64,000 nucleotides of DNA from Corynebacterium amycolatum (GTDB taxonomy: Bacteria > Actinomycetota > Actinomycetes > Mycobacteriales > Mycobacteriaceae): the NCBI RefSeq assembly GCF_016889425.1, contig NZ_CP069513.1, positions 186,001 to 250,000 on the forward strand, given 5' to 3'. Under the pieces are notes generated by a model. The model was not told where the DNA came from, ran no database searches, and saw only the letters and a program-made list of their open reading frames with translations. Both the position numbers and the translations under genes were made by a program. Positions 15,219-40,508 of this stretch are shown piece by piece. The first letter of the stretch is position 1; every line of letters starts with the position of its first letter.

Positions 15219-15500
15219 TCAGGACACGCCCCGAATCGACTTCACCGTCGGCGTCCCTTTCCCCGCCCGCCCGAACAACCGCGTAACGGTTCCCTTCGAT
15301 CGGGCGGTTTTTTGCTGCTTCTCGACGCCCTTCGCCACCTCTCTCTCCTTAATTTCGCGTGCTTTACGACGCTCTTCCAAACCCTGCAATTCTTTCTGTG
15401 CCCTCTGTATCGCCGTTTCGAACTCCTGCCTGGTCATTGCAGCAGCGTCGTAATAGGCCTGCCCAATCCGGTCATATTTCGCGGCATGCTTACTCCCCAT
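15219..15500 (-). CDS. Small coiled-coil protein, third gene of the unknown module
   Basis: 93 residues, starting MGSKHAAKYDRIGQAYYDAA at the ATG at 15500, which overlaps the stop of the preceding gene as TAATG. A GTG two codons further up is also in frame. The middle (about residues 22-62) is a highly charged amphipathic helix, probably coiled coil (FETAIQRAQKELQGLEERRK); the end is basic (KGTVTRLFGRAGKG). No signal peptide or membrane segment. No family recognised. Strict coupling to the two genes upstream suggests a partner or chaperone of the 414-residue protein; this is inference. Confidence 0.75.
   Translation of the reverse strand: MGSKHAAKYDRIGQAYYDAAAMTRQEFETAIQRAQKELQGLEERRKAREIKEREVAKGVEKQQKTARSKGTVTRLFGRAGKGTPTVKSIRGVS
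15267..15313 (+). terminator. Rho-independent terminator of the hydrolase gene, inside an antisense gene
   Basis: CCGCCCGA (15267-15274) pairs with TCGGGCGG (15300-15307), followed by TTTTTT. A nested ACCG-CGTAA-CGGT hairpin fills the loop. It terminates plus-strand transcription from the hydrolase gene, yet lies within the coding region of the small minus-strand gene at 15219-15500. Confidence 0.75.
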
Positions 15501-16744
15501 TACCACTCACCTGCCGTTGGCGAATTAACCGCGCCCACAAGCTCCTGTGCGTTGGGCTGCTCAGGGGGCTCGGGCACAGCTGAAGCAGATTCCTGCACTG
15601 ATGCTGCCGCGTCCTGGGCTGGTTCTGGCTGTGGCTCTGCTTGTGTTTCTGGCTGTTGTGATTCTGACTGCGGTTCCTGTGGCAGCTCGATTCCCAAGTG
15701 CTTTAGTTTCTCAGCCGGAGGAGGTGGCTCAGGCGCATCTTCTGGTTCCGGCTCGGGTTCGGGTTCGGGTTCTGGTTCAGGCTTACAGTCCTCCGGCGCA
15801 GGAGCTGGTGCTGGCTCAGGTGCCTGTTCGCACACTGACTCTTCCATCTCCGTGCACATGTCTAAGTTGAGCAGCGAGGTGGCGACGCTGCCCGCAACAC
15901 CCACAGCCTCCGCAATTCCGGCGATACTGGCAGCCCCGGCAGCGCCAATGGCACCTCCAACGGATATCCCAGCAGCAACGCCTGCCTCTATCCCAATATC
16001 AACGTTGGCAACAACCCCAGTTCCACCAGCGATAGCACCGTTGCCACCGGTTACAGTAGCTCCTTCGCCACTCACAGACTCAGCCACCTCTGCACAGGCC
16101 GCCGAGGTAGCACCCGAACTGGCAGGGACAGTAGGAGGCTGCGGCGGGGTGGCGACCACTGCGGCCTCAGTGTCACACGCTGCCTGCTCAAGACACTGCT
16201 CGATGCAGGCATTGCGCGCATCGTAGAGCTGACCAGTGGAGTCGACGAGACTGTTGCACACCTGCTGGGCCACTTGTGCGGCTTCGGCGCCGACCTCCGG
16301 ATCGTCGACAAGCGCTTCGCACTGAGAAAGGACGCCGTCGGTTTGCTCAGCCATATCTTCGGCCTGCTTTTCACAATCCTCGAGGACCTCGTCGACTTTC
16401 TTGCCGCACTCGCCGACACTCTGTGCGCCATCGGCGGACCGCTCATCCTGATTCGCACAGTCCTGCGCGGCTTTATCGCAGCGTTCCTTGGCGGCGCCGG
16501 CGGCATCGCCTTTCAAACCGCCCCAATCGAAAGCCATAGCAATAGTTATCGCGGAGGCTATCAACCCCACGGAGTTGGAGAACTTGGATAGGGCGCTGCC
16601 TTTCCAGCCGTCAGCGCGTCGCGCCTTATCCAAGACTTTGGGCAGATTCTTGCCGATGCCGCCGACCCCGCGCTTGGCTCCAATACGGCTTCCACGGCCA
16701 ATAACACGCACCAATATCGGAAGAATTCGAGCAACCCATGGCAT
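15500..16744 (-). CDS. Unrecognised Cys-rich protein with Pro-Glu repeat tail
   Basis: 414 residues, second gene of the module, start ATG overlapping the upstream stop as TGATG. Layout: a basic amphipathic N-terminus (residues 1-50), one hydrophobic segment near 58-75 (VGLIASAITIAMAFDWGG), then an acidic helical stretch to about 190 with regularly placed cysteines (RCDK, QDCAN, GECGK, EDCEK, SQCEA, QVCNS, NACIEQC, AACDTE). A Gly/Ala-rich segment (about 225-285) could cross or insert into a membrane. An extracellular-looking tail contains a PEPEPEPEPEP run near 325-340. Thirteen cysteines are unusual in a cytosolic actinobacterial protein and suggest export and disulfides. The size and composition recall large substrates or pore-associated proteins of type VII systems, but no family is recognised. 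Confidence 0.8.
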   Translation of the reverse strand: MPWVARILPILVRVIGRGSRIGAKRGVGGIGKNLPKVLDKARRADGWKGSALSKFSNSVGLIASAITIAMAFDWGGLKGDAAGAAKERCDKAAQDCANQDERSADGAQSVGECGKKVDEVLEDCEKQAEDMAEQTDGVLSQCEALVDDPEVGAEAAQVAQQVCNSLVDSTGQLYDARNACIEQCLEQAACDTEAAVVATPPQPPTVPASSGATSAACAEVAESVSGEGATVTGGNGAIAGGTGVVANVDIGIEAGVAAGISVGGAIGAAGAASIAGIAEAVGVAGSVATSLLNLDMCTEMEESVCEQAPEPAPAPAPEDCKPEPEPEPEPEPEPEDAPEPPPPAEKLKHLGIELPQEPQSESQQPETQAEPQPEPAQDAAASVQESASAVPEPPEQPNAQELVGAVNSPTAGEW

Positions 16745-17079
16745 CAGTCCACTACCTCAATTCCACCGAGGTCGGCACTCCCGTCGCTGTCACAGCTTGC
16801 AAAGACACGCCACTGTTCCCGCACTGCCGGAGCATGGTTGCCAAGTCCCGCGTACATCGATTGCCCGTGCTCACGCAGCTGCACTGCCGCCTGCTGCAGA
16901 CGATGCCCCTGGGCGGCAAAACCCTGGCCACAGTCTGCTGCTGAGATATTGGGAGCGCTTCCCCACCGCTCATGGCCGTCACGGCCGCGCTGCTCGATCT
17001 CTCGGGCAGCCGCTGTCACTGCATCCTCCGAAAAGTGCAGCAAGCCTCCGCCACTGCCTCCAGTAAAACTTGCGGACAC
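16744..17079 (-). CDS. WXG100-like small helical protein, first gene of the module
   Basis: 111 residues from the GTG at 17079, with GGGGATTTTTC before it, the same kind of ribosome-binding site as eccC. Predicted as two amphipathic helices (SEDAVTAAAREIEQRGRDGHERWGSA and QGFAAQGHRLQQAAVQLREHGQS) joined by a turn containing W-G, the general plan of ESX-secreted WXG100 or EspC-like proteins, but without a clean WXG turn or a C-terminal YxxxD/E. Coupled to the next gene by TGATG. An ECF-type promoter nearly identical to that before esxU lies 45 nt upstream. Assignment as a type VII substrate is inference. Confidence 0.7.
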   Translation of the reverse strand: MSASFTGGSGGGLLHFSEDAVTAAAREIEQRGRDGHERWGSAPNISAADCGQGFAAQGHRLQQAAVQLREHGQSMYAGLGNHAPAVREQWRVFASCDSDGSADLGGIEVVD

Positions 17080-17123
17080 GAAAAATCCCCTTCCCCCGCG
17101 AAAAACAGTTCTTATTACTGTTA

Positions 17124-17149
17124 GGCGCGAAAAAAGGGGATTCGGTTCC
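17124..17149 (-). promoter_or_regulatory. ECF-sigma-type promoter of the three-gene module
   Basis: Minus strand GGAAC (17145-17149), 17 bases, CGCC (17124-17127). The start would be near 17116, 37 nt before the GTG. The 40 bp around it match the esxU promoter region at 31 positions with no gap. The form resembles mycobacterial SigM promoters (GGAAC, 16-18 bases, CGTC), which are known to drive esxU/esxT in M. tuberculosis. Confidence 0.65.
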
Positions 17150-17178
17150 GTTGAGGTCCTAGCGCGGGTGCCCCCGGG

Positions 17179-18369
17179 CTAACGAGCGCGGTAGATGCGC
17201 TTACAGCCCTCAACACCGGTGAAACTGAATGGACCGGTGCCGATCAGTGCGTCGTCTCCCAGGTTTGAGTACTCACCCGGATCTTCATGCGTCACCTGAG
17301 CGTGGCGGTAGTAGGTCGGATCATCGAGCTTTACGCGCTCTTCCAGTTCACGAGCATTATCTGCGGCGCGCAGCTGGGACTCGTAGCCCTCGACCACATT
17401 GCCGGTGAGGAACTCAGCAACTGAGCCGGAACCATAGGAGACAACAGCGACCTTCTTACCAGTCAGGTCCTTCTCGGTGTCCAGCAGCGAGAGCAGGCCG
17501 AAGTAGGCCGATGCTGTGTAGGAGTTACCGATGATGCGGTTGTACTCAGTGGTTGGGCCTAACTGGCGGGCCTCGTCCTCTGCGGTGAGCTCCACACCGT
17601 TATTGGCCGACAGCTGCCGGTGCGCCTTGTAGGCCATCTTGGTGAACGGCTGGTGGTAGCTGAAGTAGTCAATCTCGCTGAAGTCCACACCGCCGCGGGC
17701 ACGGTAGTCCTCGTAAGCCCCCTGAACAGCGTCGATGTAAGCGCCAATAGAGAGCTTGCCCTCCACCAACGCCTGACTGCGGTGGTTCGGACGCCAGAAG
17801 TCCATAACTTCGCGGGTGAAGACGCCCGAAGCCGCATCGATGGCCAGGATGCGCGGATTAGCGGTCACCAGCATGGCCACAGCACCTGCGCCCTGGGTTG
17901 GCTCCGCAGCGGAGTCCAGGTCATAGCGGGCAATGTCGGAGGCGACAACGATGACCTTTTCCTCCGGATTGCGGGCCACCAGAGCGCACGCAAACTGCAG
18001 CGCCGCGGTACCCGAGTAGCAAGCCTGCTTCAGCTCAACAGAGCGCGCGTGCGGGTCAAGACCAACCAACTCGTGGACATAGACGGCAGCGGCCTTCGAC
18101 TGGTCGATACCGGTCTCAGTGGCGAACATGATGGTGCGCACGCCGTCGATACCGTGGCGATCCACAATCTTCTTCACCGCAGTCGCGGCCATCGTCACCG
18201 GATCTTCATCAGAGGCAACCACGCTGGAGCGTTCCTGCCCCAGGCCCTTGTGATATTTTGCCGGTTCCGCTCCGAGTCGGGGCGCAATATCGGCGAGGTC
18301 AATGCAGTACGAACCCGTCGCAAAAGCGATGTCATCAATACCGACCGGGGTCACATTGCTTGTTGTCAT
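17179..18369 (-). CDS. mvaS: Hydroxymethylglutaryl-CoA synthase
   Basis: Condenses acetyl-CoA with acetoacetyl-CoA to HMG-CoA, the first committed step of the mevalonate pathway. 396 residues from the ATG at 18369 (MTTSNVTPVGIDDIAFATG). The catalytic triad of the family is intact: Glu about 85 (MFATETGIDQSK), the acylated Cys117 (LKQACYSGTAAL) and His239 (YFSYHQPFTKMAYK). The C-terminal VVSYGSGSVAEF closes the thiolase fold. Last gene of the mevalonate cluster. The 195-nt gap after mvaA, with repeats, suggests its own promoter. Confidence 0.96.
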   Translation of the reverse strand: MTTSNVTPVGIDDIAFATGSYCIDLADIAPRLGAEPAKYHKGLGQERSSVVASDEDPVTMAATAVKKIVDRHGIDGVRTIMFATETGIDQSKAAAVYVHELVGLDPHARSVELKQACYSGTAALQFACALVARNPEEKVIVVASDIARYDLDSAAEPTQGAGAVAMLVTANPRILAIDAASGVFTREVMDFWRPNHRSQALVEGKLSIGAYIDAVQGAYEDYRARGGVDFSEIDYFSYHQPFTKMAYKAHRQLSANNGVELTAEDEARQLGPTTEYNRIIGNSYTASAYFGLLSLLDTEKDLTGKKVAVVSYGSGSVAEFLTGNVVEGYESQLRAADNARELEERVKLDDPTYYRHAQVTHEDPGEYSNLGDDALIGTGPFSFTGVEGCKRIYRAR

Positions 18370-18433
18370 CAAAACCGTGCCTTCACTACCTCTACAGATT
18401 TTAAGAAATAACGGGCAACGAAACATCCCATGT

Positions 18434-18469
18434 CATCAGAACGACCATCAGAGCCGTCATCAGACCACG
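18434..18469. repeat. Three 12-bp tandem repeats upstream of mvaS
   Basis: CATCAGAACGAC, CATCAGAGCCGT and CATCAGACCACG follow each other without gaps in the mvaA-mvaS spacer. An imperfect dyad (ACCTGAGA-TTTG-TCTTAGGT) lies nearby at 18523-18542. No protein is encoded across the repeats with confidence. Confidence 0.6.
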
Positions 18470-18563
18470 GGATATTTTGCCCACAAAATGTTAATTGCCT
18501 ACTACAGAAATCTAGCGCGTTTACCTGAGATTTGTCTTAGGTTTTGCGAATTGTTGCGACGCA

Positions 18564-19619
18564 CTACTTCGCCCGCTCGATAGAAACGTGCGCCTCCATC
18601 AGCTCACCCGGGTTCGTCTGTGCCGCGAGCAGGGAAAGCTCACCACACCAGACGATTGCCGCACAGCACGCTGCTAGACGACGGGCATTCTCACCCGGCT
18701 CACGGTCCTCCTTGCAGCCCAGCGCCGTGAGATTCTTCTCCACGAAGTCCAAGCCCTTGCCGTTGCCCACGGAACCGACGATCAAATGTGGCAGGGTGCA
18801 GCTAAAGCGCACGGAGCCGTCGTCAAGCGCCTCTACCTGCGTCAGCCCCTGCGAGCCCTCGACGATATTCGCAGCGTCCTGACCGGTAGCGAGGTAAAAG
18901 CCCAGCAGCATATTGGCGTAGTGCGCATTACCGCTGCGCAGCGAACCGGCCATGATGGAGCCGACGAGGTTCTTGCGCTCGTTGAGCTCGGCCAGACGCT
19001 TGGCAGTTGTGCGCAGACGTTCGCGGACAACTGGCTCTGGAATGACGGCTTCGGCAATCACGTACTTACCGCGACCCAAAATGCCATTGACGGCGGAGGT
19101 CTTCTTATCGGTGCAGTAGTTTCCCGAGATAGAGCCATAGCCCAACTCTGGCATCTGCTCCATCAGGTAGGACATCAAACGCTCAGACGCCAGCGTGGCC
19201 ATGTTGTGGCCCGAGGCGTCACCGGAGAAGAAGTCAAAGCGGACAAAGAGCAGACGCGATGCGATCTGAAAGTGAATATCCACCAGCCTGGCAAAACGCG
19301 AGGAGGACTCCACGACCTTCTTCAGCTCGTCATAACGAGACAGGATGTTGTCGCGTGCAATGACGGCATCAGCTGCCGAGTCGAGAGTGAAAATCACCGA
19401 GCGGGTCATCTTCTCGCCGACGAAAGTACAGGTAATGCCACCTTCAATCATGCGGGAGACCTTCGCACCGCGACCACAGGACGGCCACAGCGGGGTCTCG
19501 TAAGTCGCCAGCGGAATCTTCACCTCGTCATTCATGACGTTGCCACTAATGCGCACCGGGCCAATCCAGCTCAGTGGTACGTGTGCATATTCCAGGTCGT
19601 GCGAGCTCTTTTCAGCCAT
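18564..19619 (-). CDS. mvaA: HMG-CoA reductase, soluble class I-like
   Basis: Reduces HMG-CoA to mevalonate with two NAD(P)H. 351 residues, no membrane domain, comparable to the soluble Streptomyces enzymes. Motifs seen: catalytic Glu in LATYETPLWPS, cofactor region SGDASGHNMA, GNYCTDKKTSAVNG (catalytic Lys) and QDAANIVEGSQG (catalytic Asp). The GTVGGG motif appears as GSVGNGKG, and the active-site His lies in QTNPGELMEAHV near the end. The core around GNYCTDKK is close to class I (eukaryote/archaea) enzymes rather than class II. Confidence 0.95.
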   Translation of the reverse strand: MAEKSSHDLEYAHVPLSWIGPVRISGNVMNDEVKIPLATYETPLWPSCGRGAKVSRMIEGGITCTFVGEKMTRSVIFTLDSAADAVIARDNILSRYDELKKVVESSSRFARLVDIHFQIASRLLFVRFDFFSGDASGHNMATLASERLMSYLMEQMPELGYGSISGNYCTDKKTSAVNGILGRGKYVIAEAVIPEPVVRERLRTTAKRLAELNERKNLVGSIMAGSLRSGNAHYANMLLGFYLATGQDAANIVEGSQGLTQVEALDDGSVRFSCTLPHLIVGSVGNGKGLDFVEKNLTALGCKEDREPGENARRLAACCAAIVWCGELSLLAAQTNPGELMEAHVSIERAK

Positions 19620-19639
19620 TATCCTAAGCGACCCTTTCT

Positions 19640-19653
19640 AGCTGCATGCAGCT
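19640..19653. promoter_or_regulatory. Perfect 14-bp palindrome upstream of mvaA
   Basis: AGCTGCATGCAGCT in the 93-nt gap between mvaK2 and mvaA, 20 nt before the mvaA start and just upstream of its ribosome-binding site (AAAGGG). It could be an operator or an mRNA hairpin; its function is not known. Confidence 0.45.
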
Positions 19654-19712
19654 TCGGTTCCCAGCTTCTGTAAATTTCAGCTGTCTTAAATTCTACGGTC
19701 AAAAAACTGTGG

Positions 19713-20810: not shown

Positions 20811-20822
20811 CTACTCCCCCAG

Positions 20823-22822: not shown

Positions 22823-22826
22823 GAAG

Positions 22827-23483
22827 CTACACATCCCTTTCCGAAACCGACTGTGCGGCAGCCTGCGCCTCCGCGGGGCCATGGATACCCGGCACACCCG
22901 CAATGTCGAAACCGTACTTGGAGAACTTCTCCGCACCAACACCCCAGACGTGGTTAAACCACTCCGTCATCGGTTCGTTCGCGCGGCGTTCGGCGAGCTC
23001 CTGCGGGGTCACGTACACCACTTCATCGACCTCATCGGGGTTGATATCCACCGACTTCGGATCGACGATGCCGGCGTAGACATGGTTGTACTCGTGCTCC
23101 GCCAGTCCCGAACGATCATCGATGACCTGGTAGATAACGATGCCGATTTCCTCCAACTGGGAGACATCCGCACCGAGCTCTTCCTTCGCACGACGCTCAA
23201 CGGCATCCGCCACCGGCTCCCCCGGCAGTGGGTGCGAGCAGGTCGCATTCGTCAGCAGCAGTGGTGAGTGATACTTCGACTCCGCACGGCGCTGCAGCAG
23301 CATGCGTCCCTGCTCATCGAAGAGGAAAAGAGAAAAGGCACGGTGCAAAATTCCCGGCGGAACGTGTGCTTCAAGCTTGCCGACGGTACCGAGAACTCGA
23401 CCGTCACGATCGACTACCTCTACCTGGATGTCGGCTTCACCCGGGGCAAAGCGGGCTTTAATGTCCTCTGGCGCATCATTCAT
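22827..23483 (-). CDS. idi: Isopentenyl-diphosphate delta-isomerase, type I
   Basis: Nudix-fold enzyme that interconverts IPP and DMAPP. 218 residues from the ATG at 23483, with AGGAG upstream. The type I catalytic Cys is in LLTNATCSHP (family NTCCSHP) and the catalytic Glu in LAEHEYNHVY; the Nudix helix is VADAVERRAKEELG. Streptomyces mevalonate clusters of similar order carry the unrelated flavin-dependent type II enzyme instead, so the type I gene at the head of this operon is a variation. Its start is 16 nt downstream of the glmM end, so read-through from glmM is possible. Confidence 0.95.
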   Translation of the reverse strand: MNDAPEDIKARFAPGEADIQVEVVDRDGRVLGTVGKLEAHVPPGILHRAFSLFLFDEQGRMLLQRRAESKYHSPLLLTNATCSHPLPGEPVADAVERRAKEELGADVSQLEEIGIVIYQVIDDRSGLAEHEYNHVYAGIVDPKSVDINPDEVDEVVYVTPQELAERRANEPMTEWFNHVWGVGAEKFSKYGFDIAGVPGIHGPAEAQAAAQSVSERDV

Positions 23484-26639: not shown

Positions 26640-26676
26640 TTACTTTACCGTGGAAACACTACTAACTAGATTTTTA

Positions 26677-28599: not shown

Positions 28600-28615
28600 A
28601 CGGTTTCCTTCTTCC

Positions 28616-30139: not shown

Positions 30140-30427
30140 CTATCCCCAGCTAGCTGCCGCACGGCGGTTAATATCCGCCATTCGCTGACTACCTGCGCTG
30201 ACAGTATCCGCAATAGTTGTGAGAATCATATTGAGCTCCTCCGCTGCTGTGTCCCATTCACGCTGAGCCTCCTGATAAGAATCCGAAGACTCACCCTCCC
30301 ACGTAGAGACCATCGGCGCGATGCGCTTCTTCAAATCTCCGAGCAGCCCGTTGATAGTGCCAGAAGTGGAACGAATGTCATCCGCAGCACCGTCGATGCC
30401 GCCGAAGCTGTACCTAATTGGTTGCAT
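30140..30427 (-). CDS. esxT: WXG100 family type VII secretion protein, EsxT-like
   Basis: 95 residues starting MQPIRYSFGGIDGAADDIRS at ATG 30427, with GGGAAAGGG upstream. Two helices flank the WEG turn (MVSTWEGESSDSYQEAQREW, near residue 41), which is the WXG hallmark; YQEAQREWD follows. It is the expected heterodimer partner of the upstream WXG100 protein and a substrate of EccC. The position next to rplM matches esxT of ESX-4. The name rests on synteny. Confidence 0.88.
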   Translation of the reverse strand: MQPIRYSFGGIDGAADDIRSTSGTINGLLGDLKKRIAPMVSTWEGESSDSYQEAQREWDTAAEELNMILTTIADTVSAGSQRMADINRRAAASWG

Positions 30428-30500: not shown

Positions 30501-30827
30501 TTAGAGGTTCAGCAACGACGCACCCGCTGCTGCCACCTGCTTGAACGACGACGCCCCCTCGTCCTCGCCCGCATCGAAGCTGCTGGAATTTGCGCGGATG
30601 TTATCCGCAATATCCGTCAGCGCATTGGATAGACGCATAGCTGCGTCATCCCAACGAAGCATCAGATCATCGAAGCTGTCTTTAGCCTGGCCCTTCCATT
30701 CCCCCGCCAGACCGTCCACGACGCCTCGAATGCGCCCCAGCTCGCCCTGTACTTCCGAGTTGACGCCATCGACGTCCCCTGCGGTAGTGGTCATTTGATC
30801 TGATTCGGCTGCAAATAGGTTTGCCAC
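30501..30827 (-). CDS. esxU: WXG100 family type VII secretion protein, EsxU-like
   Basis: 108 residues from GTG 30827 (VANLFAAESDQMTTTAGDVD), with GGGGG 6 nt upstream. The WKG turn lies in GLAGEWKGQAKDSFDDLM near residue 45. A short linker after the second helix carries acidic residues (DAGEDEGASS). The frame is open to an ATG at 30923, which coincides with the start predicted for the ECF-type promoter, so a 140-residue leaderless form is conceivable but less likely. It lies 73 nt before esxT, and both are driven by the promoter at 30931-30956. Confidence 0.88.
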   Translation of the reverse strand: MANLFAAESDQMTTTAGDVDGVNSEVQGELGRIRGVVDGLAGEWKGQAKDSFDDLMLRWDDAAMRLSNALTDIADNIRANSSSFDAGEDEGASSFKQVAAAGASLLNL

Positions 30828-30930: not shown

Positions 30931-30956
30931 GGCGCGAAAAACCCCGATTCGGTTCC
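30931..30956 (-). promoter_or_regulatory. ECF-sigma-type promoter of esxU-esxT
   Basis: Minus strand GGAAC (30952-30956), 17 bases, CGCC (30931-30934), about 100 nt before the esxU GTG. Same spacing and surrounding sequence as the promoter at 17124-17149. In M. tuberculosis the ECF factor SigM activates esxU/esxT, which supports this reading. Confidence 0.65.
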
Positions 30957-31029: not shown

Positions 31030-32421
31030 TTACGGCACCGGCCGAGCGCTTACTACTGCCTGGTCGCATACGGGCCGTACCGGCGCAATAGTCCTTCCTC
31101 TGAACTGGCACCCCACACTGACTTGAGTTCCGTCCATCACTTTGTGATGCCAGAGCACTATCGAATTACCTGACGGCAGCCGCTCTTCTAGGACTACGAC
31201 ATCGGTGCCCAGTACTTGCCTGCGTTCCGGCGCGGACTTTGTCTCATCCCCGGCAACGGAGCTACTCAAAGCTGCTGCTAGATGTTCAAGCGCCATGTCC
31301 TGCGAAAGCGGATTAGCGAGCACCAATACGCGCATATCTCCGCCATCCACCGCAATCAGACGGTCGAACGGACTTGCCGAATCAAGCTCCCACCCGCCGG
31401 GAAATCGAGCTTCCACGCCTGCATTGGCCAGCATGACTACTGGAGCAGAATCGGGAACCGGTTTCGATGTGGGTGGAGGCGTAGTTACAGGTGGCGTAGT
31501 TACAGGAGGAGCCTGTGCGTGCGATGTCTCACGCTGCTTCTGCCTCCCCTCGTTCTCCCTGCCTATGCCGCCACTAATGAGCCATGCAGCAATCCCAACA
31601 ATCAGCACCACCACCGTCAACAAACCAACGGCAGCTACTGACACAACTGTGCTTTGATTCGACACTGCGCTGGCTTCTCCCCTGGCTGCAGGATGCCTCC
31701 CCGCGAGATCCTCCAATTGCTCCACTTCACCGGCTTCAGCGTCGCCGATGCTTTTCAACCAGGCCGGATTTACGCACTCCCCGAGCCGCGAGGCTGGACA
31801 GTCAAAGACCAAAAACCCACGGTCGCGCAGACGATCGACTAGTAGAGCTCGCCGCGGGTTCGCTAGCCCAGGTGGAACTTCGCCGACGATGAACTCAATA
31901 TCCTCCTGCCAGCGAGGCGGATACTCGGTAATACCGCGCCCACCGCTAACTTCCACATCATCAGGTATCCCCTGGGGTACATCCGGATACATGGTCAGCT
32001 GATAAGCCAGCGCAATAACTGTTTCCACCAGCGGTGCGCTGTCGTTCGCTCCGACCAAATGTGTCATCCGACTGTCAATGTGCCCACCGCTTAGACGAGT
32101 GACACAGACACGCGTTTCCTCTACTTCCACCAACACGCTATGAGACACAGTTGCCTCATCGAGTTCCACAACGGCGTCGGCAAGCGTCAGAATGTACGGA
32201 TTGAGTTCGGCAGCCAATAGCGCGGAGGCCAGCCGGCACTGTCGCACAGCACCCCAATAGCTGGGCACAATGACTGTTTGCATGCTCTCGAGAAGCGGTC
32301 TAGGGCCATGCACAGCCAGTTCTGTGGTGTCTGCAGGTGCCGCGAGTCCCCACAGATGCCAGGTACCGTGGCGCAGCGTCGGGGTCTGCGTGGTGTCAGG
32401 AGAATCGACCCGAATCATCAA
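31030..32421 (-). CDS. Type VII secretion-associated protein, Rv3446c family
   Basis: 463 residues. The N-terminal half (about residues 1-230) resembles an ASKHA-like accessory domain of Rv3446c proteins (PLVETVIALAYQLTMY). A single transmembrane helix follows near 265-290 (VSVAAVGLLTVVVLIVGIAAWLI), then a Thr/Pro-rich stretch and an extracellular C-terminal domain (FPGGWELDSASPFDRLIAVD) matching the family's conserved end. Consistently linked to ESX-4; biochemical role unknown. Its start overlaps the eccC stop by 4 nt. Confidence 0.85.
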   Translation of the reverse strand: MMIRVDSPDTTQTPTLRHGTWHLWGLAAPADTTELAVHGPRPLLESMQTVIVPSYWGAVRQCRLASALLAAELNPYILTLADAVVELDEATVSHSVLVEVEETRVCVTRLSGGHIDSRMTHLVGANDSAPLVETVIALAYQLTMYPDVPQGIPDDVEVSGGRGITEYPPRWQEDIEFIVGEVPPGLANPRRALLVDRLRDRGFLVFDCPASRLGECVNPAWLKSIGDAEAGEVEQLEDLAGRHPAARGEASAVSNQSTVVSVAAVGLLTVVVLIVGIAAWLISGGIGRENEGRQKQRETSHAQAPPVTTPPVTTPPPTSKPVPDSAPVVMLANAGVEARFPGGWELDSASPFDRLIAVDGGDMRVLVLANPLSQDMALEHLAAALSSSVAGDETKSAPERRQVLGTDVVVLEERLPSGNSIVLWHHKVMDGTQVSVGCQFRGRTIAPVRPVCDQAVVSARPVP

Positions 32422-35400
32422 CTGTCCTCCTGGTCACCAGCAGTATCCAACAAACCCAACTGCACAACCTGCGGACTCTGGCCGTGCGCCACCCAATAGC
32501 CACGACCCGGCGGCTGTTCGCAGGGCTTTACGCCGAGGATGGGGCCGTCGTCGCGTGTGCCATCCATAACAAAGACGCTGGCGCCCTGATCCTTAACCGC
32601 ACCCATGACCGGGTCGTGGAGGGAACGCAACGCCCCGCTGATTCGACGGGCGAAAAAGATATTGAGCCCAATGTCGGCGGCGTGAGCGATGACTTCTGCC
32701 AGCGGCTGCAAGGGGTTACCCCGTGAGCCAGCCACGAGGTCATAGTCATCCACGATGACATTGATGGTTGGACCACTCCACCAATTTCGGGCCTTCAACT
32801 GCGCTGGAGTGATATCCGGTTGCGGGAGACGAGCCTTCAGTACCTCTGCCAGCTCCGCCAGCATGGGCGTCGCCACCGCAGCCGAGCCTGCATAGCCGGC
32901 CAGCCGCTCTTGGGGCACGGCCTCCATTAGCCCACGACGGTAGTCAATCACGACGAATTTCGAGTCCGACTGCGAGTACCGCAGCTGGTGAACGATGCCC
33001 CTCAGCGCGGCGGTTCTGCCACTGCCCGCCGAACCGAATATCAGTAGGTGGCGATCCTTTTCGGGGTGGAATATCACCGCGCCCAGACCGGCTTCTTCGA
33101 GACCCACTGCAATCGCACCTCTCGTCGCGGCCGCTGGTCGCGGCAAACGCGCAATATCAATCCGCCGCGGCAACAACTGGAGCTTGGGCGCCTGCTCACC
33201 GTGTGGCACCGTCTCTACAATCCGCTTGGTGTCCGCAGCACCGGTGAGAGCTACCAACATCGAAAAGCCGCCCGGCGCGACCCCACGTCCTGGGCTCTCC
33301 GGCACCAGCTCCGCTGCCTTACGATCAATCATTGAATCCATCGACTCCGCCTGACGCAGCTCAATCCGAGTACCAATCAGGTCGCGAACGGCAGGTCTCA
33401 TGTCCGTCCACCGATGGGCTGTCAGCAGGACATGAATTCCCACCGCCAATCCATCTGCAACCAGCGCCTGCACATCGTCACTCAGCGCCGGAAGCTCCGT
33501 TTTGAACGCACCCCAGCCGTCAATGACCAACACCGAATCTGGCTGCCCTGCCGCCCGTGCTGCTTCCGACGAGAGCCATCCATTAGCGCGAAAGAGCTGT
33601 TCCCGACGACTTACCTCACGACGCAAAAAACCAAGCGTACGGCGAATAAGCTCCTCGTCTCCGCGGTGTGCAACCGACGCGACATGCGGCAACTCAGCCA
33701 GGTCGCTCAAGCCGCCCGCACCACAATCAACGATATAAAAATGCAGGTCACGGGCGCTGATGCCGTCGGCAAGCGCGAGGACCGCTGTGCGTGCAGCAGT
33801 GGTCTTTCCTGACCGCGGAGCTCCGACGATTGCCACGTGCCCGCCGGTTGTGCGCAGGTCAATACGCAGTGGGTCTTGGCGCTGAAACAGCGGCTTGTCC
33901 ACCAGTCCAATCACACCGGTCAATCGCTGTCGCGGCAGCTGCTCGTCGGGCTGGAACTCGATGGCCTCCGGTAATGGTGGCAGCCACACGCGATGCGCAC
34001 GTGTCGGTACGTGCGATACCGCTGCCACCACGGCACCGAGCACCGTCTGCTCCGATGTCTGCACAGGCGGATCCACCATTCCACCATCGCTTGACGACGC
34101 ACCGAAAGCCTCCCGCGTCCAATTTTCAGCGGTAAATTCAGCGACAGTGGCGACCTGCCCCTGCAGCCCCTGCTCTGCCCCAGCCGCCGCACCGTCAACA
34201 GGCTGCGGGCGGACCACCGGGCCGGAAACATACGCCGACCGAAAACGCACCGGCTCGGCGGCAGCAGATTTGATATACCCAATGCCCGGGATGGCCGGCA
34301 GATGATAGGCGTCCGGAACACCCAACACGCTGCGGGACTCCGCGACGGAAAAGGTCTTCAACCCAATGCGATAGGAAAGATGGCTTTCCAGCCCGCGCAA
34401 GCGGCCTTCCTCCAGACGCTGACTGGCCAGCAGCAAATGCATGTGCAAACTGCGCCCCAACCGACCAATCGCAACGAAGAGCTCGGCAAACTCCGGGCGT
34501 GCGGAGAGCAGCTCCGAAAACTCATCCACCACAATCAGCAACGCGGGCATAGGTGGCGCATCTATCTGCCCAGAGCGCCGGGCCTGTTCATAGTCGCTGA
34601 CACCGGCGAAATTCCCCGCAGCGCGTAGCTGCTCTTGGCGCCGCGTCATCTCACCGCGCAGTGCGTCTTCCATGCGGTTGACCAGGATAAGCTCCTGCTC
34701 CAAGTTGGTAATCACCGCCGAGACATGAGGCAATTGATCCAGTCCCAGAAACGTCGCACCGCCTTTGAAGTCCACCAGCACAAAGTTCAACTGATCCGGA
34801 CTGTGCGTGGCTGCGAGCCCTACCACGGTCGTTCGGAGGAATTCCGACTTACCCGATCCTGTGGCACCAACGCACAGACCGTGTGGGCCCATGCCGCCCT
34901 CGGCGCTCTCCTTAAAATCCAGATAGACCGGCGCGCCGCCGTCATCAGCCCCAACGGGAATACGCAGACGAGCACTGCCAGAGCGCGGTCGGTAGCGCAG
35001 AGTTGTCGGAGGCGGATACAACCCGAGCTCCTCCATAACCGGATCTTCCGAGGTCTTAACAGAATCATCTGCGCTTGTTGGCACTTCAAAACGCGCCAAG
35101 CTCCGCCCAAGAACCTCCGCTTCTGCTGGACTCAGCTGATCAGGTACACCAATCTCCTCCCTTCCGGACGCGGTTTCCGCATGCACAGTAGTGGTGGAAA
35201 CGGCCAGCGCGATGCCATGGTTAACCGCGGCCTCCCACAACATTGACTGCGCCTCCACGACGGTCAGCAGAACTACCGAGGTCTCCGACCCCGCCTCGTC
35301 AAAAATCGGTGTCAGTTCAGTGACATCGAGCTGTCCGCTCGAATCCGCCAGCACAATCAGCACTGCAGCTGGCAGTGTGTCGATAGCCGTGAGCAGCTCC

Positions 35401-36245
35401 GTCAGCTGCGCACACGTCGCTGCCCGCAACCGCGCTGAGCCACAGGCATCAGTAACTGCGGGGTGCCCGTGGTGTGGTGTCCATTTCAGCCATTCCCACC
35501 CATCTCCCACAACTGCAATCAGGCAATCCTCCGGATGATGCAGCGCAGCGGCTTGGGCGACCATCGCTCGAGCCAGCCCCTGCGCCGCGGTATCTCCAGT
35601 GAGGGCGATAATCTCAAAGGCCGACACATCTATGGCAAAGGGCACTCCCTCAACCTGACGAGCCGATCGAATAACTTCCCGCAGTGCTACGGCGGAAACC
35701 GGATCCAGTTTCTCGGGCGCCGGAATTGCCGGCGGTGTCACAAGCGTTGCGGGCTGCTGCGTTGCCACCCCGATGCGCAGCTGCAAGAAATCCGGGTCCC
35801 CCTTTCGGCGCTCGCACGCCCGCCCCATCGCCCCCAGCTGCCACAGAGTTCCAGGCCGAGGGTGGATAAACTGCGCCGATTCACGCTGCATCCTCGCTGC
35901 TTTCGCCACCGCCCGGCGAATACTGGACAAATGCCTCTGATAGTCCTTCCGCGCCGGTGCCATGTCCTTATTTCCCGCCCCTCCCGACACCATCATGCCC
36001 ACAGTGGAAAACACCATCATCAGCGGAAACATAAACGACATCGGGTTACGTCCCATCCCAGAGACAAACATCAACACCACCATGCCAACCACCGCCACGA
36101 CCATGATCAACGGCATGAGTGCACGCATCAGCGGCACCGGCTGTGGCTCCGGCGCTTCCGGTGGCGCATCCGGCGCGATTGTGCCCGTCATAGGCTGCGG
36201 CCCCGCTTTTCGGGTAGCCGAAATCCCCGCCCGTGCACTAGTCAC
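32418..36245 (-). CDS. eccC: Type VII secretion ATPase EccC (FtsK/SpoIIIE type)
   Basis: Motor of the secretion system, inner membrane. 1275 residues from GTG 36245, with GGGGGG before it. Two transmembrane helices lie near 40-90 (LIMVVAVVGMVVLMFV, MMVFSTVGMMV). Three tandem ATPase domains follow: Walker A VGATGSGKSEF near 460, VGAPRSGKTTAAR near 810 and FGSAGSGRTAALRG near 1075; the last has Arg in place of the Lys. A Walker B-like VDEFSEL appears in the first domain. It is a single-chain EccC, as in ESX-4. Divergent from eccD across 217 nt. Confidence 0.96.
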   Translation of the reverse strand: MTSARAGISATRKAGPQPMTGTIAPDAPPEAPEPQPVPLMRALMPLIMVVAVVGMVVLMFVSGMGRNPMSFMFPLMMVFSTVGMMVSGGAGNKDMAPARKDYQRHLSSIRRAVAKAARMQRESAQFIHPRPGTLWQLGAMGRACERRKGDPDFLQLRIGVATQQPATLVTPPAIPAPEKLDPVSAVALREVIRSARQVEGVPFAIDVSAFEIIALTGDTAAQGLARAMVAQAAALHHPEDCLIAVVGDGWEWLKWTPHHGHPAVTDACGSARLRAATCAQLTELLTAIDTLPAAVLIVLADSSGQLDVTELTPIFDEAGSETSVVLLTVVEAQSMLWEAAVNHGIALAVSTTTVHAETASGREEIGVPDQLSPAEAEVLGRSLARFEVPTSADDSVKTSEDPVMEELGLYPPPTTLRYRPRSGSARLRIPVGADDGGAPVYLDFKESAEGGMGPHGLCVGATGSGKSEFLRTTVVGLAATHSPDQLNFVLVDFKGGATFLGLDQLPHVSAVITNLEQELILVNRMEDALRGEMTRRQEQLRAAGNFAGVSDYEQARRSGQIDAPPMPALLIVVDEFSELLSARPEFAELFVAIGRLGRSLHMHLLLASQRLEEGRLRGLESHLSYRIGLKTFSVAESRSVLGVPDAYHLPAIPGIGYIKSAAAEPVRFRSAYVSGPVVRPQPVDGAAAGAEQGLQGQVATVAEFTAENWTREAFGASSSDGGMVDPPVQTSEQTVLGAVVAAVSHVPTRAHRVWLPPLPEAIEFQPDEQLPRQRLTGVIGLVDKPLFQRQDPLRIDLRTTGGHVAIVGAPRSGKTTAARTAVLALADGISARDLHFYIVDCGAGGLSDLAELPHVASVAHRGDEELIRRTLGFLRREVSRREQLFRANGWLSSEAARAAGQPDSVLVIDGWGAFKTELPALSDDVQALVADGLAVGIHVLLTAHRWTDMRPAVRDLIGTRIELRQAESMDSMIDRKAAELVPESPGRGVAPGGFSMLVALTGAADTKRIVETVPHGEQAPKLQLLPRRIDIARLPRPAAATRGAIAVGLEEAGLGAVIFHPEKDRHLLIFGSAGSGRTAALRGIVHQLRYSQSDSKFVVIDYRRGLMEAVPQERLAGYAGSAAVATPMLAELAEVLKARLPQPDITPAQLKARNWWSGPTINVIVDDYDLVAGSRGNPLQPLAEVIAHAADIGLNIFFARRISGALRSLHDPVMGAVKDQGASVFVMDGTRDDGPILGVKPCEQPPGRGYWVAHGQSPQVVQLGLLDTAGDQEDS

Positions 36246-36462
36246 AAAAATCCCCCCGCTATGTGTCGCCCCTTGTGTTCACTCGACGGCCAATCCCCCG
36301 ACCAATCGGTGTGCACATAGCTTAAAACACACTCCGGATTCTCGCAGCGCATGGCCGAGACTGTTAGCGGGGGCACGCGCAGTTACTACCCCGAGTAGCG
36401 CTCTAACGAGTTGTACGCCACTCTAGAGGGACTAAAGCATGCAGAATTCATGGGGGAAATAC

Positions 36463-37854
36463 ATGCTGGGGGAACTCATTCGCGTGCGCATTGATGCCGC
36501 ACACATGCCCGAAGACGCCAACCGAGCACACGCAGACCTTGCATTACCGACCAACGTCGCAATCGCCGCACTCGTACCGGATATCCTGCAAATTTTCGAT
36601 ATCGACATTGCGGACTTCCCGCTGGCACAGTGGCAGCTACGGACCGCCGCCGGCACGATATTGCTTGCCGACGACACCCTGAACGATGCCGGTATTGCGC
36701 CAGGCGAACGCCTGGTTGTTATCAACGACCCAGGGCCCGTGCCCAAACCTCGGCTCTTCGATGCCGCCGATGCTATTACCGACACCACCTATACCGACGG
36801 TATCGGTACGGCTGATTTAGTTGTTGGCTGTACCGCCGCCCTCGTAGCCACAGCTTCAATTGCAGCTGCCTCACTGAGCTTGAGCAGTACCGATTCCACA
36901 CTGGCCGCGGCAATCAGCTTCATCGCACTGCTGGCAGTAGCCGGTGGACTGCGCCTGGCTCTGTTGCGTAGCGCAAAACCGGCGATTGTCATGTCCCTGG
37001 AGCTGCAAGTGCTCATTCTGGGCACCGCTTCGGGGCTCTGCTTCGTCGGCCTCGACCTACACCGCATACTCACCGACTGGCCGCCGACTGCTGCGATTAG
37101 CGTCGCGCTTGCCGTCACCGGTTTGGTTTTTCTCATTTCCAACACCGACGACGGCGACAACCGCATCACTGTTACCCTGGGCGCCGCGAGTCTCAGCGCT
37201 GCAGTTACCTTCGGTATTTACGCTGCGGCTGTCGCACTTTTCCAGAACTCGGTTCAATCAGGAGCACTCACCGCTGCTAGTGCAGTCATCCTGATACTGC
37301 TGGCACCTTCCCTGGCTATCAAGGCTGCCGGTATTCGCGTACCCAAAGTCCCTGCCGCCGGAGAGAGCTTCGATGACAGCGAAACTCCCGAAATATCCCA
37401 CAACGCACCTAAGCGAGCGGGTTGGATTCTCGACGGCATCCTCTGCAGTGGCACCGGAAGTCTCAGCATTTTCACCCTGGTGGTACTTTTCTCCGGAGCC
37501 TATGCGAACAGGTGGTGGCCTCTGGGCATGGCTGCTGCTGTCATAGTCTTTTGTGCAATTCACTCCCGTGGCCAAGCCCGGAAAGTAGCTTCCACCTGCA
37601 CTGCTTTAGCTGGTCTTGCCGTCATTGTGGCTGTCGCCTTTCAACAGTGGTTCGAAGGCAATTGGCCAGTTTCCGCTGGCCTTGTCGTCCCAATGCTTGC
37701 AGCCACCGCCTTAGCCGCATTTCCAGCGTCACGCATCTCACCTACAACGCGCCGCATAGCTGAGCTAACCGAGGCCTGCAGCATCGCCGTCATTCTGCCC
37801 ATTGCGGCCATCATTGCCGAATTCCCTGAGTTCGTAAGTGGGTTCTTCCAGTGA
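36463..37854 (+). CDS. eccD: Type VII secretion integral membrane protein EccD
   Basis: 463 residues from ATG 36463, with GGGGG 7 nt upstream; an ATG eight codons earlier (36439) is an alternative. The N-terminal cytosolic ubiquitin-like domain (about residues 1-95: VRIDAAHMPEDANRAHADL, GERLVVINDPG) is followed by eleven or so hydrophobic helices, the EccD plan. It forms the membrane core of the channel with EccB and EccC. The stop overlaps the mycP start as GTGA. Confidence 0.93.
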   Translation: MLGELIRVRIDAAHMPEDANRAHADLALPTNVAIAALVPDILQIFDIDIADFPLAQWQLRTAAGTILLADDTLNDAGIAPGERLVVINDPGPVPKPRLFDAADAITDTTYTDGIGTADLVVGCTAALVATASIAAASLSLSSTDSTLAAAISFIALLAVAGGLRLALLRSAKPAIVMSLELQVLILGTASGLCFVGLDLHRILTDWPPTAAISVALAVTGLVFLISNTDDGDNRITVTLGAASLSAAVTFGIYAAAVALFQNSVQSGALTAASAVILILLAPSLAIKAAGIRVPKVPAAGESFDDSETPEISHNAPKRAGWILDGILCSGTGSLSIFTLVVLFSGAYANRWWPLGMAAAVIVFCAIHSRGQARKVASTCTALAGLAVIVAVAFQQWFEGNWPVSAGLVVPMLAATALAAFPASRISPTTRRIAELTEACSIAVILPIAAIIAEFPEFVSGFFQ

Positions 37855-39107
37855 AAAACCCACTTTTCATGAATGCCATAAAACCCCGTCTCACCGCCAC
37901 GACCGCACTTTCCACGGTGCTTATCTCCACGTTGACGGCGGCCACCGCAGTAGCACCGTCGGGCATCGCACCAATAGCGGCTGCCCAGAACAGCCAGGAC
38001 TGCGTGGCCACGATGCTGTCGTCGGAAAGCGCACTGCGTGAACCGACAGTGATCGAAAAAACTCTTCGGTTTCGCCAAGCATGGCAACTGACGACGGGTG
38101 CGGGGATTACGGTGGCGGTGATCGATACCGGGGTCTCACCCAATGAGCGCCTGGGCGAGGTTCTCGACGGTGGCGATTTTGTCGACGGCGACAGCGGGTT
38201 CGTAGACTGCGACGGTCACGGAACTCTAGTAGCCGGCATTATTGCAGGCCGGCCCGGTGCCGATGGTTTTGCGGGACTGGCGCCCGACGCGCACGTGTTG
38301 TCGATAAGACAAACGGCCGATGGCGAAGGCAATTTGGAGTCGCTGGCACAAGCTATCGACAGGGCCGTCGCGGAGGGCGCGAGGGTTATCAATATTTCGC
38401 TCACATCGTGTGCCCCGGCAGGTGTAATGCCCCAAGGTGCAACGGATGTTGCCGAGAGCGTCGCACGTGCGGAAGTCTCAGGCGCAGTAGTGGTCGCAGC
38501 GGCAGGAAATAAGGGCGATAGTTGTCAGGCCGGATCCGTAGCGTGGCCCGCAGTCCTGCCGGAGGTAATCGCAGTATCAGCAGTACAGTTCGACGATGCT
38601 GGCCAAGCACAACCCGCGGAGTATGCAATCACGGGACAATGGGTCAATGTCTCCGCTCCCGGCGGTCCCGTACTCGGTCCCGATCCGCGCACCCCTACCG
38701 GCCTCATAGACCGCCACGTGTTCGGGTCCGGGGATAACACCCGAGCTCAGCAAATCGCCGGCACCAGTTTTGCCACGCCAGCCGTGTCGGGAACGGCTGC
38801 CCTGCTGCTGGCACGAAACCCAGAGCTTTCCCCAGCACAGGTTCGCGACATCATCCTTAATTCCGCGAGCCCAATTAGTTCCGGGCTTGGCCTTGGCCGC
38901 GGCATCATTGCACCGTATGACGCTCTGATTTGGACCACTGCGGACACCGCCGCGCAGCACGCCGCCAATCCCGCTGCCGCGCCGGCTCCACCGGATCTGC
39001 TTTCTTCGCAGGAGCGCAATGCACCGCTCCGGGCGACTGGGCTGCTCCTGATATGCGTGCTGGGCCTAGGTGCCTGGCTGCTCTCGCGTCCCGGACAGCG
39101 GCCCTAG
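37851..39107 (+). CDS. mycP: Mycosin, type VII secretion-associated serine protease
   Basis: Membrane-anchored subtilisin-like protease that stabilises ESX complexes and can process substrates. 418 residues. Signal peptide at 1-45 (STVLISTLTAATAVA), propeptide-like stretch, then the S8 triad: Asp92 (AVIDTGVS), His123 (DCDGHGTLVAGI) and Ser306 (AGTSFATPAVSG). The C-terminal helix LLLICVLGLGAWLLS anchors it, with a short basic tail. Begins at GTG 37851, overlapping eccD by 4 nt. Its last 42 nt overlap the end of eccB on the other strand. Confidence 0.95.
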   Translation: MKNPLFMNAIKPRLTATTALSTVLISTLTAATAVAPSGIAPIAAAQNSQDCVATMLSSESALREPTVIEKTLRFRQAWQLTTGAGITVAVIDTGVSPNERLGEVLDGGDFVDGDSGFVDCDGHGTLVAGIIAGRPGADGFAGLAPDAHVLSIRQTADGEGNLESLAQAIDRAVAEGARVINISLTSCAPAGVMPQGATDVAESVARAEVSGAVVVAAAGNKGDSCQAGSVAWPAVLPEVIAVSAVQFDDAGQAQPAEYAITGQWVNVSAPGGPVLGPDPRTPTGLIDRHVFGSGDNTRAQQIAGTSFATPAVSGTAALLLARNPELSPAQVRDIILNSASPISSGLGLGRGIIAPYDALIWTTADTAAQHAANPAAAPAPPDLLSSQERNAPLRATGLLLICVLGLGAWLLSRPGQRP

Positions 39108-40508
39108 CGCCGCCTGCTTACTCAGCTCAGGGCCTCCACGCAACGCGGCCAGAACTTCCCAGTCCACTGGCCGCGTACCACCGCTGTCGGCGTTGGATGA
39201 TGCATTAAACCCGAGAGCAGCCAACGTCGTGCGATCGTGCACAGCAAAGCGCATTCCCTCTGGCGAAATGACGTGTACAGCCCCATTTACGCTTACTGCG
39301 ATCGAGCTGCGCTCACGACTGCGGCCATCCACGAAACCGTCGACGGCCACACCCGCCCCGTCAGCATGCGGGTAATCCACGTGCCGCCCCTCCGGAGCAT
39401 GCTGCGACCACTGCACGAGAGCTTGCAGCCGTCCTGCTATCCGGCCGGCACACAACCAGCCATCAGCATCGGCAAACGTCAACGGCTTTTCAGGTAGTCC
39501 CGGGACTGCTGGTGCATTCGCAACGGGTACTGCCGCCAGCTGCCCTTCACTGGCCTGCAGAACTGGGCTATGTGCAGCTAATAGCTCTCCTAGCACCGGG
39601 GAGAGAATCGCGGCACCGTCGTCAAGCACGATAACGCGCCGCTGCCCGACCTCGACCACATTGCCGACTGTGTCGAATGGGGCGGCGAAGTGTGTGGGTG
39701 CGCCGCGGTTTGGAATTGCTGGCGCGGCCAGAATCGGAACCTCCGGAATCGCTCTGAGCAACGCAGGGCTAACAGGCCGGACTGCGGCGCGCTCCAAACC
39801 CAGCGCTCGAGAAACAGCGGCGTGCTCCGGGTGGTTGACATCCAACCGTGAGCGGTAGCCCTGCGTAATCAGCCAGTGGTTTTGGCCATCGGCAACAACG
39901 GCACTGTCCGAGTGGGTCCGGGTAAGCTGCTGCGGTTCCCCACGTACTTCCTCAAGACGCGCAAGTGACTCTGCAACAATCCACGGTTGCCCGAGGTCTT
40001 GCACCGTCCGCTCGCATAAAGACAGTGCCAGCTCCGGCGCACCTACGCTGCCCGTCTTGGCAGCTCCCGAGGCCCCAGAGCCTGCCGGCGTGGCCGGAAC
40101 TGCTGGTGCGCCCTCAATCCCGACAGCAAAACTGATGTCCTCTTTGTCCAACTCGCTACTGCGCACCCGTTTCGGCTCAGCAGGATTGCCCAAAATTAAC
40201 CGCGCCGATGCGAGATTCGCGACTGGATGCAATCGACCATTGACACGTACATGTAGGCCCTCCGACCCTGACACGACAATCAGCTGCTCATTGGAGCTAG
40301 AACCGCCCTGCGGTCGCACCAACGACAGCACCGCAGTACCGGCGGCCAGTAAAACCACCAGCGCACAGCCGATAAACAGTGCTCGGGTTCGCGTGCGCAG
40401 AGGGTCGTGCAGCATTCGCGAATCCGCACGCACAAGCGCATGCTCAATCCGACGAATCAAGAATCGATGACCGCTGACCTGGCTAGGCGTGGTCGGTGTA
40501 CGTGGCAT
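39066..40508 (-). CDS. eccB: Type VII secretion protein EccB
   Basis: 480 residues. The N-terminus reads SQVSGHRFLIRRIEHALVR, the conserved cytosolic start, followed by one membrane helix near residues 44-64 (ALFIGCALVVLLAAGTAVLSL) and a large periplasmic region with the RIL-like EccB repeats (VNHPEHAAVSRALGLERAAV, GRRQRRVIV-type VGQRRVIVLDDGAAILSP). The intramolecular Cys pair is placed at LSLCERTV and DGWLCAGRIA. Transcribed opposite to eccD-mycP and divergent from eccE. Confidence 0.93.
   Translation of the reverse strand: MPRTPTTPSQVSGHRFLIRRIEHALVRADSRMLHDPLRTRTRALFIGCALVVLLAAGTAVLSLVRPQGGSSSNEQLIVVSGSEGLHVRVNGRLHPVANLASARLILGNPAEPKRVRSSELDKEDISFAVGIEGAPAVPATPAGSGASGAAKTGSVGAPELALSLCERTVQDLGQPWIVAESLARLEEVRGEPQQLTRTHSDSAVVADGQNHWLITQGYRSRLDVNHPEHAAVSRALGLERAAVRPVSPALLRAIPEVPILAAPAIPNRGAPTHFAAPFDTVGNVVEVGQRRVIVLDDGAAILSPVLGELLAAHSPVLQASEGQLAAVPVANAPAVPGLPEKPLTFADADGWLCAGRIAGRLQALVQWSQHAPEGRHVDYPHADGAGVAVDGFVDGRSRERSSIAVSVNGAVHVISPEGMRFAVHDRTTLAALGFNASSNADSGGTRPVDWEVLAALRGGPELSKQAALGPLSGTREQPGT

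Follow-up and report, generated by a model that had tools for sequence, protein, structure and literature searches.

A conserved, predicted ECF-type promoter motif common to the ESX-4 substrate genes esxU-esxT, a three-gene module and DNA-handling genes in Corynebacterium

Introduction

In Corynebacterium amycolatum, the ESX-4 substrate genes esxU-esxT and a three-gene module are preceded by the same 40-bp block, which very probably represents the promoter of an ECF sigma factor, most likely SigM, and would allow SigM to co-induce a wider regulon that includes a peptidoglycan hydrolase operon, a secreted nuclease and recA. The predicted promoter motif is conserved and common to these genes. 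The link between SigM and ESX-4 is already known in mycobacteria, and no description of the corynebacterial regulon or of its recombination arm was found in the open-licence literature. ESX-4 is described as the ancestral mycobacterial type VII system, the job of which is debated, with iron or heme uptake, toxin export and conjugation under discussion (PMC12607788; PMC10117145; PMC8593097). Because ESX-4 substrates stand here beside a nuclease, a cell wall hydrolase, recA and sometimes dprA, the conserved regulon ties ESX-4 to horizontal gene transfer in a concrete and testable way, in a genus that includes a species well suited to laboratory work, and regulon membership gives the unannotated module an experimental handle.

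The motif in the C. amycolatum genome

The stretch of DNA that was analysed, termed the window, comprises 64 kb (positions 186001-250000) of the C. amycolatum genome, which is a single contig of 2.47 Mb. A sequence-only reading of the window had described two minus-strand sites with GGAAC, 17 bases and CGCC as twin promoters, and sequence comparison bears this out: positions 17116-17155 and 30923-30962 are identical at 31 of 40 positions without gaps, as had been claimed, with the runner-up 40-mer on either strand of the window reaching 22/40, and each site reads GGAACCGAATC-N4-TTTTTCGCGCC, i.e., GGAAC-N17-CGCC. Within the 64-kb window, no site beyond these two matches GGAACC-N17/18-G[TC]C[ACT][AT][AT]. 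The bare pattern GGAAC-N17-CGCC given in the same reading turned out not to be specific on its own, as it occurs at chance level (54 genome sites versus 48 for the reversed pattern), and it was rejected as a regulon finder. It is the extended form that carries the signal: GGAACCGAATC occurs three times in the genome and not at all in the control, GGAACCG-N9-TTTTCGCGCC has six exact sites and two with one mismatch (eight together; 19 sites versus 5 in the control at up to three mismatches), and GGAACCG-N{8,14}-TCGCGCC has nine sites versus none in the control, the ninth of which (2299651) was set aside for its other spacing. Seven of the eight sites with at most one mismatch stand just before genes. 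Site 872586 was rejected as a real promoter, since it lies within a repetitive Pro/Gly-rich ORF and is thus probably a chance occurrence. The pair of sites is real, but "twin" was too narrow a term, as the block recurs at seven or eight places in the genome. These copies do not precede many unrelated genes; they stand before few genes, which form a recurrent set:

Genome 142033: NlpC/P60 operon, encoding a protein of ~134 aa and a protein of 348 aa with an NlpC/P60 domain
Genome 203149 (window 17149): three-gene module
Genome 216956 (window 30956): esxU-esxT
Genome 474387: AbiEi-like protein, below the Pfam cut-off
Genome 1188498: SAF-domain protein (named by eye; neighbour cluster CL7), followed by mscL
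Genome 2037765: recA
Genome 2278398: secreted HNH nuclease (GmrSD_C/HNH_4)

The ESX-4 locus and the three-gene module

By profile searches, the ESX-4 set is complete in the window, with eccB, eccC, eccD, mycP, the Rv3446c-type gene and two WXG100 genes:

30140..30427, minus strand: esxT, WXG100 (E 1e-19, TIGR03930); ATG start at 30427 inferred
30501..30827, minus strand: esxU, WXG100 (E 5e-18, TIGR03930); GTG start at 30827 inferred
30931..30956, minus strand: predicted ECF-type promoter of esxU-esxT; motif match, conserved at esxU loci
31030..32421, minus strand: Rv3446c-type T7SS-associated protein (TIGR03931)
32418..36245, minus strand: EccC ATPase (TIGR03924, TIGR03925)
36439..37854, plus strand: EccD (TIGR03920)
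37851..39107, plus strand: mycosin MycP (TIGR03921)
39066..40508, minus strand: EccB (TIGR03919)

The scan of the 64-kb window found no motif site at the ESX-4 core genes, which suggests that, at least here, the factor would control the substrates and partners, not the machine. The interval between glmM and rpsI-rplM-esxT-esxU (window 24945-28665) encodes two proteins that score far below the curated cut-offs, one of them VanW-like and the other a SucT-like acyltransferase.

The module lies on the same strand as esxU-esxT:

15219..15500, minus strand: module gene 3 (S2c), ~93 aa, charged; ATG start at 15500 inferred, the listed ORF starting at 15506
15500..16744, minus strand: module gene 2 (S2b), 414 aa, Ala/Pro/Glu-rich with hydrophobic stretches, ending in AGEW
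16744..17079, minus strand: module gene 1 (S2a), 111 aa, predicted helical hairpin, small-partner-like
17124..17149, minus strand: predicted ECF-type promoter of the module; -35 GGAACC, spacer of 17, -10 GCC(TAA)

A protein search with module gene 1 gave 15 matches only, of which the named ones are Corynebacterium hypothetical proteins, and an alignment of 14 sequences could be assembled from relatives behind the same promoter, which are 18-95% identical to the window protein. No curated Pfam family matched module gene 1, PF06013 and PF10824 included (0 families), and the comparison with an EsxU/EsxT alignment gave an hhalign value of 3%, so that its assignment to the WXG100 or EspC proteins is unsupported. 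The gene that opens the NlpC/P60 operon, likewise small, is a homologue of module gene 1 (hhalign 91.3%, E 9e-7), hence the module and the NlpC/P60 operon each appear to combine one small protein with one large cargo. The structural model of module gene 1 is a helical hairpin, the likeness of which to EsxA/PE25 is no better than that to several unrelated helical proteins; its matches to ESCRT-III and chemoreceptor proteins were put down to common helical shapes.

Module gene 2 has matches in 19 genomes, only six of which, C. amycolatum included, contain clear orthologs, and the remaining matches are weak and mostly confined to the Pro-rich part; the view that the gene is widespread by sequence was therefore rejected, and module equivalents in other species were located via the promoter instead of the gene 2 sequence. 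The weak matches in G014, G049, and G138, which lie ~5 kb from esxU, may be positional equivalents. Ten equivalents (L181, L197, L212, L228, L238, L248, L258, L260, L282, and L287) end close to RKAGxW, with TRKTRTW and VRNAGGW as the most deviant tails, and the window protein ends in TAGEW; this C-terminal peptide is possibly a sorting or binding tag. For module gene 3, the profile search yielded no curated family above cut-off.

The module is positioned between glmS and glmM, and in C. amycolatum a mevalonate-pathway cluster (window 17179-22942: HMG-CoA synthase, HMG-CoA reductase, phosphomevalonate kinase, mevalonate kinase), which is unusual for a corynebacterium, separates it from glmM. 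This intervening cluster accounts in part for the distance of 13.8 kb between the module and esxU promoters, compared with 3.5-5.2 kb in five of the six relatives measured and 17.9 kb in the sixth. Rv3440c-Rv3439c of Mycobacterium tuberculosis, which lie between glmM and glmS, were considered as a counterpart of the module and this was not confirmed.

Conservation in close relatives

The form of the motif found in C. amycolatum (clade form) occurs at up to one mismatch in 14 of 151 Corynebacterium genomes, and the reversed control matched once in all 151. From 13 of these genomes 26 clade-form loci were fetched, and 18 of them match C. amycolatum regulon genes; the matching loci come from C. 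amycolatum SK46 (G101), G034, G069, G056, and C. lactis S064 (G001). The other eight, one each from eight genomes, are stray loci that match no regulon gene, at least three of them being one conserved sequence, and in eight of the 14 genomes the clade form is found at stray places only. Strain SK46 is close to the window strain (EsxU 100% and HNH nuclease 89% identical), and the more diverged relatives have protein identities of 43% for module gene 1 (G001), 53-56% for NlpC and 63-64% for the HNH nuclease. In these diverged relatives, the motif is kept in front of esxU in G056 (exact) and C. lactis G001 (GGAACCAAAACGGGCATTTTTGCGCC), in front of the NlpC operon and the HNH nuclease in both, and in front of recA in C. 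lactis G001. The module motif is kept with one mismatch in C. lactis G001 (L058) and with two in G056 (L132).

The alternative that the 31/40 match is merely a duplicated segment or a chance likeness of no regulatory meaning would be in keeping with the chance-level abundance of bare GGAAC-N17-CGCC, but it is hardly credible, as the extended pattern lies far above its controls and as the motif stays while the spacer diverges at several orthologous genes. The nine spacer bases differ at esxU, NlpC, HNH and recA in G001 and G056, and at the module the spacer is mostly kept (GAATCCCC in C. amycolatum and G056, GATTCCCC in G001). Such divergence of the spacer around a retained motif at orthologous genes argues for a functional site and not for a recent duplication, which the footprint in relatives already contradicts.

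Genus-wide form and regulon content

In other corynebacteria, the element upstream of esxU mostly reads GGAACC-N17/18-[AC]GTC[CT]AA. EsxU was found in 149 of 151 Corynebacterium genomes, and the loci of the 30 best EsxU matches, which include C. amycolatum and near relatives, were inspected after removal of L074, which matched EsxT. Among the 29 best-scoring loci left, GGAACC-N17/18-G[TC]C[ACT]AA stands at esxU exactly in 19 and with up to one mismatch in 24, so that five are without the motif at this threshold, and a control stretch of 300 bases starting 200 bases into the gene gave 0/29. At HNH nuclease loci, where the 350 bases before the match were searched, the looser motif was found exactly in 42 and with up to one mismatch in 53 of 68, compared with 0/68 when a control stretch was searched that starts 200 bases inside the match; the nine HNH loci of other genera (Millisia, Tomitella, Austwickia, Marinomonas, Cerasicoccus, and Roseibacillus) have no motif at up to one mismatch. 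The nuclease promoter is present in C. gallinarum and C. pacaense, two species near C. glutamicum.

The genus form GGAACCN{17,18}GTCYAA has 231 sites in 24 genomes, versus 16 for the reversed pattern, with a single site in G013. For 120 sites, of which 114 come from twelve genomes (119 sites in all) and six from G055 (12 sites in all), the surroundings were fetched and the downstream genes clustered; the counts over twelve genomes given here refer to genomes with near-complete site lists, and the family names come from one representative each. The HNH nuclease follows the motif in 12/12 genomes (three of these from a separate look-up), the NlpC/P60 operon in 11/12, the SAF gene, mostly with mscL, in 10/12, an equivalent of the module near ESX-4 in 9/12, TagI (methyladenine glycosylase) in 8/12 and AbiEi/DUF559/MTES_1575-like genes, three clusters lumped, likewise in 8/12. 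An unnamed gene of ~200 aa, in many cases followed by a gene that by eye looks TreY-like, is found behind the motif in 7/12, and three further groups are found in 6/12 each, namely recA (exact motif), a DUF3558-like lipoprotein gene with a gene for a protein of ~400-530 aa, and esxU-esxT (exact genus form). The large subunit of exonuclease VII (XseA) and UPF0102-comM stand behind the motif in 2/12 each. When 29 UPF0102-comM loci were compared, the promoter was exact in three (G042, G059, G121) and had one mismatch in another three (G070, G078, G140), with two or more mismatches in the other 23, C. amycolatum included; dprA directly follows comM in G042 and G121, the two that were checked by profile. 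Neither comM, which thus has no motif site in C. amycolatum, nor TagI, which had no match in the 13 C. amycolatum loci tested, could be confirmed as a regulon member in this species. No recurrent neighbour was seen at 21 of the 120 sites, and the control predicts about eight chance sites.

The proposal that the module is co-regulated with esxU-esxT, made from the window alone, gains support from these comparisons, as both motifs are kept at orthologous places in relatives and as the module equivalents near ESX-4 carry the genus form in the nine genomes mentioned above.

G026 contains five near-identical copies of the promoter (L263, L265, L269, L270, L274), each of which precedes a DUF3558-like lipoprotein gene and a gene for a protein of ~480 aa with variable parts, and four related operons are present in G053. 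This looks like a multi-copy effector-type family within the regulon. At L259 (G055:C47), a motif site is followed at a distance of ~600 bp by an ORF that by eye resembles an ECF sigma gene, and a sigma cascade is possible there.

Promoter geometry

Among the 120 sites, 53 have a start codon that opens a frame of at least 80 codons at a distance of 5-7 nt from the end of GTCYAA, and 69 have any ATG or GTG there, whereas no other single offset between 0 and 39 reaches more than 4 sites (range 0-4). This fixed spacing speaks independently for a promoter, and it predicts that transcription of many targets starts at the start codon (leaderless). In C. amycolatum, the SAF, recA and HNH sites have the leaderless spacing of 5-7 nt, and leaders precede the module, the NlpC operon and probably also esxU, although there an in-frame ATG is found near the predicted start. 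A leaderless recA transcript would lengthen the reading frame at its N-terminal end by 36 codons in C. amycolatum (L033) and 42 in C. lactis (L067), many of them for acidic residues, and a longer RecA isoform might be made from this transcript.

Which sigma factor reads the motif

The promoter consensus of SigM is GGAAC-N16-18-CGTC. The -35 element GGAACC of both window sites and of the genus form fits it, as does the spacing; the -10 is GTC at orthologous sites elsewhere in the genus and GCC, which differs from the consensus, in the window sites and in the amycolatum-lactis clade. C. amycolatum has six Sigma70_r2 loci, and the one beside trxB (L040, G000:C1:673811) was taken as the SigM type by gene order and by eye; it has a best match in 30/30 genomes searched, and the gene order beside trxB comes from C. 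amycolatum alone. The activation of M. tuberculosis esxU/esxT by SigM, which the sequence-only reading had invoked, agrees with the report that sigM overexpression raises esxU/esxT 1800/70-fold and esxF/esxE 60/100-fold (PMC8593097); deletion of sigM lowers esx-4 transcripts two- to fourfold (PMC10117145). For M. smegmatis, a review states that ESX-4, a cell wall hydrolase and a nuclease are direct targets of SigM once cells are in contact (PMC9514802, citing Clark 2018), and since the corynebacterial set likewise holds these three kinds of gene, SigM is favoured as the factor that reads the motif.

The change of the -10 to GCC was compared with the sequences of SigM, SigE and SigH, the latter two in 10 genomes each. 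In region 2.3-2.4, SigM of the GCC clade has a mean identity of 0.34 to the others, which among themselves reach 0.48, and the corresponding values are 0.89 vs 0.94 for SigE and 0.80 vs 0.81 for SigH. Over its full length, however, SigM gives 0.34 vs 0.42, and because it evolves fast over its whole length, these values hint only weakly that the -10 GCC covaries with a changed SigM region 2.3-2.4. Across the genus, SigM sequences vary much more than those of SigE or SigH: its best matches (L300-L329) show 32-41% identity to the 24 genomes outside the clade, though the motif is nearly fixed.

An assignment to another ECF factor, of the SigC or SigD type, would imply another inducing signal and leave the link between the module and ESX-4 standing. 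C. amycolatum does have a candidate, a SigC-like factor (L041) named by eye. Promoters of C. glutamicum SigC read GGGAACT...CGACTA, with a -35 close to GGAACC (PMC5483222), but their CGAC differs from the GTC/GCC of the -10 described here, SigE and SigH show little change in the clade with the altered -10, and the combination of ESX-4, hydrolase and nuclease is the one reported for SigM in M. smegmatis (PMC9514802), hence we regard a SigC- or SigD-type reader as improbable. The trxB1 promoter of C. glutamicum, formerly assumed to belong to SigM, is read only by SigH in vitro (PMC5483222). With SigM as the preferred reader, the motif set predicts a regulon for the corynebacterial factor, the targets of which were left unsettled in that study (PMC5483222).

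A possible program for DNA acquisition or a stress response

If SigM reads the motif, its release would lead to transcription of the ESX-4 substrates EsxU-EsxT and of two operons that pair a small helical partner with a large cargo, i.e., the NlpC/P60 peptidoglycan hydrolase operon and the three-gene module. It would likewise induce the SAF-domain membrane protein, the secreted HNH nuclease, recA and further genes for the handling of DNA, among them TagI and, in some species, comM-dprA. The cargo could then be secreted via ESX-4, and DNA from contacted cells might be taken up or recombined, a role suggested by gene content. Its predicted co-induction with ESX-4 substrates and genes for DNA handling makes it probable that the module is a component of the envelope or of secretion, linked to ESX-4 and deployed with DNA-processing genes. 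We tentatively propose, as one possible reading, that in Corynebacterium cell contact triggers ESX-4 as the first stage of a program for acquiring DNA, in which the envelope is opened at the neighbour and its DNA is processed and recombined. If so, DNA transfer would be the ancestral job of ESX-4, common to this program and to mycobacterial distributive conjugal transfer.

The strongest rival is a response to DNA damage or envelope stress, in which RecA, TagI, XseA and the nuclease would repair or clear damage and ESX-4 would repair the envelope, with no import of DNA. This is quite possible, as TagI and XseA are repair enzymes, a LexA-like box (spotted by eye) is also present upstream of C. 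amycolatum recA, and neither comEA nor comEC was recognised by eye among the genes behind the 120 sites. A secreted nuclease, a peptidoglycan hydrolase and type VII substrates are, on the other hand, foreign to classic repair. The recombination mediator recA, of a kind expected in a natural-competence regulon, stands behind the motif in C. amycolatum, C. lactis and half of the twelve genomes, and the motif before comM-dprA in some species points to the recombination of incoming DNA.

Comparison with known systems

Among type VII systems, the C. glutamicum ESX-4-like T7SS, with Fur-controlled eccB and the effector ExsI, resembles the one described here in being a single ESX-4-type locus; the topic of that study is Fur and iron, and its main text does not contain the term "sigma factor" (PMC12607788). 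In Staphylococcus aureus, the peptidoglycan hydrolase EssH is tied to T7SSb (PMC13059805), which recalls the NlpC/P60 protein of the corynebacterial set, whereas here the NlpC/P60 cargo is encoded in a bicistron with a small partner, under a predicted ECF-type promoter.

The closest likeness is to the SigM/ESX-4 regulon of Mycobacterium, where the ESX-4 apparatus, a wall hydrolase and a nuclease are co-regulated on contact (PMC9514802), and with which C. amycolatum shares the presumed ECF control of esxU-esxT and the position of sigM beside trxB. In contrast to Mycobacterium, among the ESX-4 genes of the C. amycolatum window the site is confined to the substrate genes and absent from the core genes, and the predicted promoters, which are often leaderless, mostly have GTC as the -10, with GCC in the amycolatum-lactis clade. 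Corynebacterium further adds recA, TagI, SAF-mscL, AbiEi/DUF559-like genes and the DUF3558-like lipoprotein operons to the predicted regulon and, in some species, comM-dprA and xseA.
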